In this document: one piece after another, positions 5,844-9,138 of the stretch
How the letters are laid out: the number at the start of each line of letters is the position of its first letter
Position numbering within the stretch: the first letter of the stretch is position 1
Assembly: GCA_013289395.1 (NCBI GenBank)
Contig: JABCZY010000007.1
Coordinates: 1 to 42,473, forward strand
Direction of reading: 5' to 3'
DNA length: 42,473 nt
Source of the DNA: Bacteroidota bacterium
GTDB taxonomy: Bacteria; Bacteroidota; Bacteroidia; JABEUT01
The notes under the pieces: generated by a model
The model's database searches: none
What the model was told of the DNA's origin: nothing
The model's input: only the letters and a program-made list of their open reading frames with translations
Program-made: the position numbers and the translations under genes

Positions 5844-5850
5844 CTACTTT
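5832..5850. terminator. hairpin spanning the abutting stop codons of holA and the GH92 gene
   Basis: AAAGTAGT (5832-5839) and ACTACTTT (5843-5850) form a perfect 8-bp stem with a 3-base GTA loop. It covers the holA TAA (5841-5843) and the complement of the GH92 TAG (5844-5846). A T-rich stretch (ATTTCTATTTC) follows on the plus strand, so it best serves holA. Confidence 0.45.
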
Positions 5851-8800
5851 ATTTCTATTTCATCAATAAAAATAAACGCGCTATCTGGGTAGCCGGGGTG
5901 CCATTTAGGTAGTTGGCCATAGTTTTTCGCAAAGACCTTTATATACCGCGCTTGTTGCGCAGGAATTTCTTTTCCGAATGATTTTATGGTGGGTGTTTCC
6001 ATTGTATCTGCAATGGTATTTACAACATGTGCAACAGGGATAAAGTGTATGCTATCGGTTGATACAGAGAAATCAACATAGGTAGGCATATATATATAGC
6101 TCAAAGCATCTTGCAAAAATTCTGCACTCACATTTTTAACTGTTTCTGTTTTACCCAGATCAACAACCGCCTCAAAATCCTGGTACTGGTAACCCTGCCA
6201 TTTGCCTAAGTGAAAATCAGTACTGGCATGTTGGAAATCAATTAATGCTTCAGGTCCACCTGCAGTATATTGCCTATTGGGTGTAGGTTTAATTTTTATT
6301 TTTCTGCCTTTTGGGATTTTGATGAAATGTGCATCCATAAGAATGTAGAATCTTGGGAATGTTCCACCTTCTTCGAAATTTGAACTTAGTTTTCCCTTGG
6401 GTCCTCTTTGAGCATAGCAACTTATACTGTCCGTTTTGCTTATATAAAAAGCCGAATCATAAGGTATTGAACCTTCTGTGCCCTCTACTGAATCAATATG
6501 ACATGATGAAATCTCGAGCCTGTCATCTGGTGAATATCCTTTGGCAATTATTCTAACTGAATCAGTAAACAATACATTATCATATTCTAAATATGGTATC
6601 GGCACAATACTTTCACCTTTAGGAATAGAATCTACTGGTACATTATTCCCCGTTCCCCAGGTTGATAGTAAATTAGTCGTGGTGAATGTATAACTCAGTG
6701 TGCCGCCATTCATTAAATCAGTATAATGTAAGAAAGAGCCCATATGGTCTTTGCCATTTAATGTTGCAGCCTCAATATCACCTGAACTATTTTCAAGATT
6801 AGCAGCAATAATTGAAAACGTTTTTCCATTCTCTAAGTGTATTGTTACAGTATCAAACAGAGGAGTAGTTAACTCAAACTGCCCATCACCCGGGCAAACC
6901 TGGTACAAACCCATGGCACTCATTACATACCAAGCAGATAGCGCACCACAATCATCATTACCACAAATTCCATCGGGCTTAGCGGTATAAAAATTTTCTA
7001 TTTCATGCACATATTGGGCAGTTTTCCAAGGCTGTCCAACGTAGCTATATAAATATGCCATATGGTGACTTGGCTCATTACCCTGTGCATATTGCCCTAT
7101 CATTCCTGTAATATCAGGCTGCTGCCTGCCATCCATTTTCGATGAAGTGGTAAATAGAGTATCTAATTTCATCGCCAGTTTTTCTTTGCTGCCATACAGA
7201 TCTATCAATCCACTAATATCTTGCGGAGTGTAAAAATTATATTGCCATGCATTGGCTTCGGTATAATTAAATGTTACTGCCTTTGGGTCAAATGTCACAC
7301 AGAACCTTCCATTCTCACGCCCCTGCATAAAATCGTTATTGGGGTTGAACACATTCTTAAAAGCCTGCGCCAATTGTATGTATCTTTTGTAATCATCCAT
7401 CTTGCCCAATGATTTTGCCATTTGCGCAATGCACCAATCATCGTAAGCACATTCTAATGTTTGTGAAACCGATTCACTGCTTTTATCAGCCGGTATGTAT
7501 CCATATTCTCTCATTGCAGGTAAGCCCCTGCTATCTGCATCGGCGCTATGTTCCATAGCTGCCAATGCTTCGTTTGCATCAAAGCCCCGTATGCCTTTTT
7601 GATATGCATCATTAATTACCGATACCGAATGATACCCTATCATGCAATTGGTTTCGTTAGCAGAAAGTTCCCACACGGGTAGCATTCCGCCTTGCTCATA
7701 TTGTTTTAAAAATGTTTGAATAAATTGCCTGTCAATATTTGTATCAATAATTGTTAATAGCGGATGTAATGACCTGTAAGTATCCCATAATGAGAATACG
7801 GTATACATATCAAAGCCTTTTGCTGTATGGGTTTTATTATCCCGTCCACGGTATTGGCCGTTTACATCGGTATATAAACTAGGGTGAATAGCAGTGTGGT
7901 AAAGTGCTGTATAAAACTTTGTCAGCATAGTATCACTCTTTGATGATACTTCTATTTTATCTAAGTAATCATTCCATGCCTTTTGTGTTTTCTTCAATGT
8001 GCCATCAAAATCCCAGCCAGGTTCATCATGCTCTAAATTCTTTCTTGCATTATCGGTACTTATACCTGAAATACCAATTTTAACAAGTATAGTATCGGAC
8101 TTATCAAAATCGAAACGGACTTTGATATCCTTCGAAACTAGCTTATAACGTTCCTGAATGTCTTTCGCACTCATTGAACTGACTTTGGGTAGTTCGCGTA
8201 ACCCAAAGCCACCAAGTTGAGAATTGTCAATAAACTCTGCTATGTCTGAGATAGGCTTTGAGAATCGTATATCAAAGTAGATCCATTTATTTTTCGTCCA
8301 GGCTTTTGTTTCTCTATATCCGCATATTTCTGTATCACTAAGACATGTATATTCTGAATAAAGTACTTCATTTCTGTGCTTTAAATCGAGCATGATAGAG
8401 CAGCTATCTCCTGTAGAGTATATGTAACGGTGCATACCTGCCCTTTCGGATACAGTAAGGTCAGCCTTAATATCGTTATTTAGTTTTACTGAATAATACC
8501 CTGCCGATGCTTGCTCATTTTTGTGGGAGAAAGTAGAAAAATAAAAACTAGGATTGATGATATATGAAAATGTATCTTGGGCTTCATAAGGCCACTTATT
8601 CCATGCTGTTGGCATTAACAAAATATCTCCATAATCTGAACAGCCTGTACCGCTTAAGTGTGTATGTGTAAATCCGTAAATAGTATCATCGGCATAATAG
8701 TAGCCTGAGCAGCCATCCCAACCCGATGTGCGGGTATCGGGGCTTAATTGCATCATTCCAAAAGGATAACATGCACCTGGGAAAGTATGTGCATGCCCGG

Positions 8801-8987
8801 CAGTACCAATAAATGGATCAACATAATGCTGCAGATCTTTTTGGGCAAAAGTTGTATTGAATAGAAACAAAAATAAAAGCGTAATCCAAAACCCGACCTC
8901 ACCCTGGCCCTCTCCTACAGGAGAGGGAAACAAGTCTCCCCGCATGGGGAGATTTAGAGGGGCAAACGTTAAGGAATTACTTCTCAC
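5844..8987 (-). CDS. secreted GH92 alpha-mannosidase with C-terminal carbohydrate-binding-like domain
   Basis: This 1047-residue protein belongs to glycoside hydrolase family 92, which are calcium-dependent exo-alpha-mannosidases acting on mannan or N-glycan mannose. Seen: YVDPFIGTAGHAHTFPGACY (N-terminal beta domain), GWDGCSGYYYADDTIYGFTHTHLSG, EANAWQY near residue 577 (probably the acid Glu of the family), GNEPSHHMAYLY near 638 and GNDDCGALSAWYVMSAMG near 678. After about residue 800 there is a chitobiase-like Ig segment, then a discoidin (F5/8)-like domain ending FIDEIEIK. There is no T9SS tail, so it is probably periplasmic or surface-tethered by other means. No ATG lies upstream of the repeat. 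The GTG at 8985-8987 is the earliest plausible start; an in-frame ATG (8943-8945) lies inside an apparent 75-bp insertion. The hydrophobic signal core FWITLLFLFLFNTTFAQ begins right after that insertion. It is last in the minus-strand cluster after the Omp85 gene. Confidence 0.88.
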   Translation of the reverse strand: MRSNSLTFAPLNLPMRGDLFPSPVGEGQGEVGFWITLLFLFLFNTTFAQKDLQHYVDPFIGTAGHAHTFPGACYPFGMMQLSPDTRTSGWDGCSGYYYADDTIYGFTHTHLSGTGCSDYGDILLMPTAWNKWPYEAQDTFSYIINPSFYFSTFSHKNEQASAGYYSVKLNNDIKADLTVSERAGMHRYIYSTGDSCSIMLDLKHRNEVLYSEYTCLSDTEICGYRETKAWTKNKWIYFDIRFSKPISDIAEFIDNSQLGGFGLRELPKVSSMSAKDIQERYKLVSKDIKVRFDFDKSDTILVKIGISGISTDNARKNLEHDEPGWDFDGTLKKTQKAWNDYLDKIEVSSKSDTMLTKFYTALYHTAIHPSLYTDVNGQYRGRDNKTHTAKGFDMYTVFSLWDTYRSLHPLLTIIDTNIDRQFIQTFLKQYEQGGMLPVWELSANETNCMIGYHSVSVINDAYQKGIRGFDANEALAAMEHSADADSRGLPAMREYGYIPADKSSESVSQTLECAYDDWCIAQMAKSLGKMDDYKRYIQLAQAFKNVFNPNNDFMQGRENGRFCVTFDPKAVTFNYTEANAWQYNFYTPQDISGLIDLYGSKEKLAMKLDTLFTTSSKMDGRQQPDITGMIGQYAQGNEPSHHMAYLYSYVGQPWKTAQYVHEIENFYTAKPDGICGNDDCGALSAWYVMSAMGLYQVCPGDGQFELTTPLFDTVTIHLENGKTFSIIAANLENSSGDIEAATLNGKDHMGSFLHYTDLMNGGTLSYTFTTTNLLSTWGTGNNVPVDSIPKGESIVPIPYLEYDNVLFTDSVRIIAKGYSPDDRLEISSCHIDSVEGTEGSIPYDSAFYISKTDSISCYAQRGPKGKLSSNFEEGGTFPRFYILMDAHFIKIPKGRKIKIKPTPNRQYTAGGPEALIDFQHASTDFHLGKWQGYQYQDFEAVVDLGKTETVKNVSAEFLQDALSYIYMPTYVDFSVSTDSIHFIPVAHVVNTIADTMETPTIKSFGKEIPAQQARYIKVFAKNYGQLPKWHPGYPDSAFIFIDEIEIK
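8892..8966 (-). repeat. 75-bp double-hairpin repeat inserted in frame in the GH92 signal-peptide region
   Basis: The segment holds two perfect hairpins: a 9-bp stem (CCCTCTCCT / AGGAGAGGG, 8908-8927) and a 6-bp stem (CTCCCC / GGGGAG, 8936-8951). It reads, in the GH92 frame, as 25 residues containing GDLFPSPVGEGQGEV. GC-rich palindromes of this type, with CCTCACCCTGGCCCTCTCC, are known to me as dispersed intergenic repeats in many bacteria including Bacteroidota (from memory, not searched). Its composition differs clearly from the AT-rich surroundings. The boundaries are inferred from the length (75 = 25 codons) and from the intact signal peptide that results if it is removed. Confidence 0.65.
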
Positions 8988-9003: not shown

Positions 9004-9011
9004 CGAATGTA
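9004..9011 (-). promoter_or_regulatory. candidate -7 element TACATTCG before the GH92 gene
   Basis: A TAnnTTCG octamer on the minus strand lies between the two dispersed repeats, 16 bases before the GTG start. If used, transcripts would start just upstream of the GTG and carry the repeat inside the coding region. Confidence 0.3.
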
Positions 9012-9050
9012 CGGAATAAATCAGGGAAATTATAGCCAGATAAAACATTT

Positions 9051-9124
9051 GCCAAAAGGCACGAAGACACAAAGTATGGCAGTGTATTTCTTTGTGTTCC
9101 TTAGTGACTTGGTGTCTTTGTGGC
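9051..9124. repeat. dispersed imperfect inverted repeat (CACGAAGACACAAAG type)
   Basis: The left arm (9051-9074) contains GCACGAAGACACAAAG. The right arm (9090-9124) contains CTTTGTGTTCCTTAGTGAC and GGTGTCTTTGTGGC. Together they make an interrupted palindrome typical of the 'cacaaagacactaag' intergenic repeats that I recall from many Bacteroidota, Chlorobi and cyanobacteria. It fills most of the gap between the Omp85 and GH92 genes. Confidence 0.6.
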
Positions 9125-9138
9125 GGAAGTTCTCTATT

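Follow-up and report, generated by a model that had tools for sequence, protein, structure and literature searches.

The Rickettsia palindromic elements (RPE) are short palindromic repeats which lie in frame in many unrelated genes, N-termini included, and are kept in the protein (PMC10969869, PMC3733652); they are about 150 bp in size and are reported as confined to Rickettsia (PMC10969869). The REP/BIME elements (REPIN) consist of two inverted GC-rich hairpins with outer tails; they are dispersed and mostly intergenic, but sometimes form 20-30-residue dimers in proteins (PMC3733652, PMC6006769). In the REP super-families that have been described, the base of the stem bears a tetranucleotide tag, GTAG/GTGG or CGTC, and the associated enzymes are REP-associated Y1 tyrosine transposases (RAYT; PMC6006769). 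Lastly, DUF559 proteins are described as Vsr-like PD-(D/E)XK enzymes, e.g. Caulobacter VsrA (PMC12907096).

The window analysed here is a stretch of 42,473 nucleotides from a Bacteroidota bacterium (GenBank assembly GCA_013289395.1, contig JABCZY010000007.1, forward strand), in which a 75-bp unit made of two hairpins lies near the start of a GH92 glycosidase gene. Like the RPE, this element is in frame, is retained in the protein frame and has empty counterparts in relatives; it differs in its 75-bp length, in its occurrence in the Bacteroidota and in having DUF559-bearing forms at shared sites, no nuclease-bearing full form of an RPE being mentioned in the accessible portions of those reports. 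With the REP/BIME it shares two inverted hairpins occurring as a dispersed pair, but on reading the sequence neither stem has a GTAG/GTGG or CGTC tag beside it, the tie is to DUF559 instead, and no cognate RAYT flanked by the same repeats was found in this genome as assembled (52%) or at the RAYT loci of the genus. As with a MITE, the element is gene-less and appears to keep only the ends of a larger element, but no target-site duplication is definable (only TTT is shared) and a nuclease rather than a transposase is presumed to help it. Since palindrome-decorated proteins are already known from Rickettsia and other bacteria, the GH92 insertion alone is a further case of a known phenomenon. As far as the open-licence literature shows, neither the tie to DUF559 nor the presence of translated cassettes in core enzymes has been described; no link of such repeats, transposition, homing or tRNA synthetases to DUF559 was found there, which is weak evidence. 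Reports of palindromes that form part of proteins go back to the Rickettsia work, and to our knowledge it has never been clear what moves them. Because the protein-borne pairs share their type of end with nuclease cassettes, and empty, pair and full forms occur at the same site, the question of the mover becomes testable.

The GH92 gene and its 75-base unit

The GH92 assignment made by an earlier reading of the sequence alone is borne out by the presence of both PF07971 (Glyco_hydro_92; E 1e-169) and PF17678 (Glyco_hydro_92N; E 6e-70). The features of the region are as follows.

5844..8987, minus strand: GH92 gene of 1047 codons, with PF17678 and PF07971
8892..8966, minus strand: inserted double-hairpin element, 75 bp, 25 codons (FAPLNLPMRGDLFPSPVGEGQGEVG), recognised by its length, frame and ends, by being missing in orthologues and by its dispersed copies
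8935..8952, minus strand: first hairpin, TCTCCCC-ATGC-GGGGAGA, stem 7, loop 4, strong fold
8953-8963, minus strand: outer tail of the first hairpin, GCCCCTCTAAA, the same end being found in the G001, G007 and G004 copies
8908..8927, minus strand: second hairpin, CCCTCTCC-TGTA-GGAGAGGG, stem 8, loop 4, strong fold, with nine further matches in the genome
8894-8907, minus strand: outer tail of the second hairpin, CCAGGGTGAGGTCG, from the sequence
8985..8987, minus strand: GTG, likely ancestral start codon (MRSNSLT...), from promoter spacing and orthologue start positions
8943..8945, minus strand: in-frame ATG which the element contributes with its first hairpin loop, a possible new start, from the sequence
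8841..8891, minus strand: hydrophobic core and cleavage region of the signal peptide, FWITLLFLFLFNTTFAQ, aligned with orthologue signal peptides
9004..9011, minus strand: -7 promoter box TACATTCG, 24 nt upstream of GTG 8987, score 8.45, combined 9.55

Codons 1-49 of the gene read MRSNSLT-FAPLNLPMRGDLFPSPVGEGQGEVG-FWITLLFLFLFNTTFAQ, codon 1 being GTG. The sequence-only reading had described a repeat of 75 bases with two hairpins coding for 25 N-terminal residues, and positions 8966-8892 are indeed exactly 75 bases, form two strong hairpins and make up codons 8-32. It had also stated that excision would join MRSNSLT to a signal peptide, and with the 75 bases omitted MRSNSLT is fused directly to FWITLLFLFLFNTTFAQ. 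Its stretch of 8892-8987 was too wide: the insertion itself occupies 8892-8966, the remainder being the seven older codons MRSNSLT.

A comparison with the N-termini of GH92 orthologues, which that reading had proposed, found the 25 residues absent from all nine same-genus orthologues having the N-terminal part (ten same-genus genomes searched), and the flanking order around the start region agrees with theirs. The -7 promoter box of the genus was modelled on 648 upstream regions in three genomes; it reads TAnnTTTG and is situated mostly 24-33 nt upstream of the start codon. The best box in the window is TACATTCG at 9011-9004, the combined score of which is reached by about 2% of shuffled regions. 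In 6/7 orthologues compared (L079, L080, L081, L083, L084, L085) the codon that corresponds to residue 50 in the alignment is preceded by such a box at a distance of 82-101 nt, no comparable box being found in the remaining one (L082). The corresponding distance in the window is 171 nt, or 96 nt after subtracting the 75 bases; without them GTG 8987 lies at -72, and the orthologue starts, several of which are TTG, at -54 to -75. Since the spacing fits the orthologues only without the 75 bases, the start codon and the signal-peptide core were already present when the repeat came to lie between them in frame, which is what the sequence-only reading had supposed. This comparison of sequences shows the 75-bp unit to be a dispersed double-hairpin element that has been inserted after the GH92 start codon and ahead of the hydrophobic core. 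The idea that AACGTTTG (8970-8963) serves as promoter, the element having replaced the leader and start codon, was rejected on its chance-level score and the finding of TACATTCG instead.

The sole in-frame start downstream of the element is a TTG within the hydrophobic core, and the protein therefore begins upstream of the element or inside it, where ATG 8945 and a TTG at 8933 are possible starts. A start downstream of the repeat, which would have refuted the sequence-only reading, is consequently unlikely; the internal ATG which it had noted is in frame at 8945, and its use as a start in place of GTG 8987 is undecided. The lengthened n-region also held, going from 7 to 32 residues, and its net negative charge is refined to a change of side-chain charge from +1 to -1. 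The predicted fold of the 5' mRNA is -44.9 kcal/mol over 131 nt against a shuffled mean of -35.3. By inference, a signal peptidase cut near FAQ would remove all element-coded residues and leave the mature enzyme unchanged. We infer that tolerance of the insertion rests on its length being divisible by three, on its open frame and on its position within the part that signal peptidase should remove, the signal peptide being a tolerant landing place whose added residues should be discarded. The longer and less basic n-region, together with the strong 5' mRNA hairpins, would probably lower or re-tune expression and export of GH92, an effect which is inferred and untested.

Three other accounts of the locus have to be weighed. 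That the 25 residues have long belonged to the protein, or result from misassembly, can be entertained because the species is represented by one incomplete assembled genome, but this is contradicted by the nine orthologues without the residues, by the DNA being a dispersed repeat and by flanks which match those of the orthologues, and it is scarcely tenable. It is possible, if rather unlikely, that the old start no longer serves for translation of the repeat and that transcription or translation begins inside it at ATG 8945, the element having provided mainly a new leader and start codon; this is the sole ATG upstream of the core and is in frame, and Di Nocera and others have cautioned that many of the REPs assigned to protein N-termini in fact lie outside genes (PMC3733652). 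The well-placed box 24 nt before GTG 8987 speaks against it, as do the chance score of AACGTTTG before the ATG and the position of this ATG in the loop of a strong hairpin, and even from there 18 element-coded residues would be translated. Abolished secretion and a decaying GH92 gene would agree with the growth of the n-region, the net loss of positive charge and the burial of the start region in RNA structure, but the remaining 1015 codons after the element are open with a full GH92 score and the signal core is intact, which makes decay quite improbable.

Dispersed copies of the double hairpin

The source genome as assembled (1.87 Mb, 52% complete) is the only assembly of its species available to the analysis and allows no same-species comparison. 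A sequence search of it and of relatives, again as proposed from the sequence alone, found the right half of the element plus tail at nine additional places in the genome (E 4e-11 to 5e-4), which have a common GAGGTCG boundary and unrelated flanks and are essentially all intergenic. The whole hairpin pair, both ends included, is present in the same-genus G001:C60 with a score of 78, the best of 200 shuffles scoring 43. The proposal that a dispersed palindrome has become protein-coding is supported by these copies. Neither hairpin pattern has a second occurrence in the window (shuffled expectation 0.06 and 0.00), and a local or tandem origin there was rejected on that ground. A hairpin-plus-tail scan of 0.81 Mb sampled from this genome gave 23 elements, whereas the same sequence reversed gave 3. 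Of the 23 elements, 19 are outside frames, though frames make up 92% of the sample. A second dispersed hairpin family, GCCCCAAACCCCTAAAGGGGCTT, was seen at L327 (G000:C58), L328 (G000:C9) and about ten other places. In the secretion-tail domain of a secreted protein (P0003; L110 1336-2688) a further in-frame hairpin copy lies at about codons 400-430.

A similar pair, coding for APSQLSPLGKESTTTHQVLPNGEDLGGAGT, is present in a TPR-SpoIIE (PP2C) phosphatase of the same genome (P0002), with a short single repeat further on; both are absent from the paralogues in that genome. A PAS-PP2C phosphatase of G004 has a hairpin pair at the same site, the outer 17 bases of its left end being common with the window element, and the likeness over the whole end is weak (46 against 43 for the best of 200 shuffles). 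In G008:C3 and G004:C37 the same site holds about 130-150 extra residues, which are a DUF559 (PF04480) domain, followed in G004:C37 by residues of the repeat end VLPNGEDLGGAG. The pair-only form of this site is thus observed in this genome and in G004 and the full DUF559 cassette in two relatives, the paralogues in this genome being empty. The TPR-SpoIIE (PP2C) phosphatases form large families in same-genus genomes (L110 9616-12024), several of them adjacent, and have 45 matches in this genome.

DUF559 cassettes within core enzymes

DUF559 was found in 84/149 Bacteroidia genomes, and among the matches listed about 45, counted by hand, are in open frames of at least 500 residues. A GC-rich stem of at least 7 occurs within 200 nt of DUF559 on at least one side at 30/35 loci (4/70 control pairs) and on both sides at 17/35 (1/70), the control pairs having been taken about 1 kb away from the same loci. 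As in the window, poly-pyrimidine/poly-purine arms are the rule, being present in 52/53 hairpins at DUF559 loci. Inverted hairpins bracket several of the free-standing DUF559 genes in the genus, those at L241 being of the window's right-end type. On alignment with the cassette flanks the right half of the window element has a mean score of 22.6 as compared with 12.7 in distant windows, few single loci being separated. No full-length match was found between the ends of the window element and those of DUF559 cassettes, the likeness residing in type, tails and parts of the sequence. The only DUF559 gene found in this genome has a pair of the other hairpin family (GCCCCAAACCCCTAAAGGGGCTT), on its 3' side only.

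DUF559 with flanking hairpins was found inside methionine synthase (MetH; L249, L251, L252, L254, L259), acetyl-CoA synthetase (Acs; L266, L268) and a type I restriction subunit (HsdR; L250), as well as in leucyl-tRNA synthetase (LeuRS), where the hairpin-flanked embedded loci are L248, L256, L258, L260, L262, L269, L271, L273 and L315-L324. The host enzymes were named from sequence motifs, with additional support from TIGR00396 for LeuRS. In LeuRS, MetH, Acs and PP2C no stop codon interrupts the reading frame across the cassette. By coordinates matched by eye, DUF559 lies within or directly beside the LeuRS frame in 19/149 genomes. In aligned LeuRS it occupies two exact places, residues 297 and 538 in the numbering of this genome's own uninterrupted LeuRS; place 297 has empty and full forms, and place 538 empty, pair-only (L309, about 30 residues) and full-cassette forms. 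The poly-pyrimidine/purine hairpin was found in none of the 30 best-scoring unbroken LeuRS frames, and the hairpins therefore mark inserted forms. A nuclease gene at exact sites in a conserved gene, with empty alleles in relatives, is thus seen for the LeuRS cassettes, and not for the window element itself. As side observations, L309 (G094:C8) has at site 297 a different in-frame repeat, RHPELVSGSDNEMLKQVQHD, where other genomes have DUF559, and in the LeuRS frame of L324 (G153:C49) a 22-nt hairpin is repeated five times in tandem, in frame and 35 residues apart, after the DUF559 domain.

When 45 DUF559 domains are placed in a tree, those from free-standing genes cluster (98/95) with one embedded exception (HsdR). 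The embedded ones intermix across host genes and sites, with 7 label changes for LeuRS-297 and 5 for LeuRS-538, and one acetyl-CoA synthetase copy is nested among the LeuRS-538 copies (96/90). Such mixing is what would be expected of something moving between genes; most branches of the tree are weak.

An AlphaFold model of the DUF559 domain from this genome (pLDDT 87) matches, by structure comparison, the catalytic domain of the homing endonuclease I-Bth0305I (E 7e-5, TM 0.70), and also an endonuclease-like protein of known structure, 3hrl. Homing endonucleases, among which I-Bth0305I belongs to the EDxHD family, mostly reside in self-splicing introns or inteins. The cassettes resemble such elements in fold and in exact insertion sites in conserved genes; they differ in being translated within the host enzyme, with no intron or intein, although homing activity is untested and no specific search for splicing domains was made. 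Caulobacter VsrA belongs to the same Pfam family as the DUF559 of the cassettes, but neither hairpin brackets nor insertion inside other enzymes is reported for that type in the open part of its description (PMC12907096).

Proposed origin of the element

We consider it probable that the window unit is an inserted dispersed element composed of two inverted ends of a larger, DUF559-bearing element. In its full form that element would carry a gene for a DUF559 nuclease, which resembles Vsr and homing endonucleases, bracketed by hairpins like those of the window unit. The nuclease may drive movement, and the gene-less pairs may move with its help; both the mobility and the origin of the pairs are inferred and have not been shown. 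Because the window element, as do the pair-only forms of PP2C and LeuRS, consists of two such ends without a gene, we regard it as a non-autonomous, MITE-like relative. Against this stand the other hairpin family at the genome's own DUF559 gene, ends which are alike mainly in type, and an assembly that is 52% complete.

Alternatively, the element could be a REP/BIME (REPIN) of the ordinary sort which owes its movement to a RAYT, in which case its connection with DUF559 would be secondary. Two inverted hairpins with tails are the BIME/REPIN architecture (PMC6006769), and Y1_Tnp genes are present in 10/10 same-genus genomes. But none was found in this genome as assembled, and at 12 Y1_Tnp loci of the genus only 1 of about 14 hairpins is of the poly-pyrimidine/purine type which dominates at DUF559 loci. 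With no Y1_Tnp in the assembly and other hairpins at the RAYT loci of the genus, a RAYT as the mover is not supported, and we judge this account improbable.

Returning to the DUF559 reading, we lean, with some reserve, towards a class of Bacteroidia elements in which a hairpin-bracketed DUF559 nuclease invades exact sites of essential genes and is translated in the host enzyme without intron or intein (subject to the missing splicing-domain search), the GH92 insertion being a gene-less offspring in a signal peptide that is cut off. If this is true, many Bacteroidia have core enzymes, LeuRS and methionine synthase among them, that contain a selfish nuclease domain annotated as the enzymes' own. 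Elsewhere in the window, the intergenic region at 9050-9130 contains an inverted pair, GGCACGAAGACACAAAG / CTTTGTGTTCCTTAGTGACTTGGTGTCTTTGTGGC, which is possibly another dispersed repeat.
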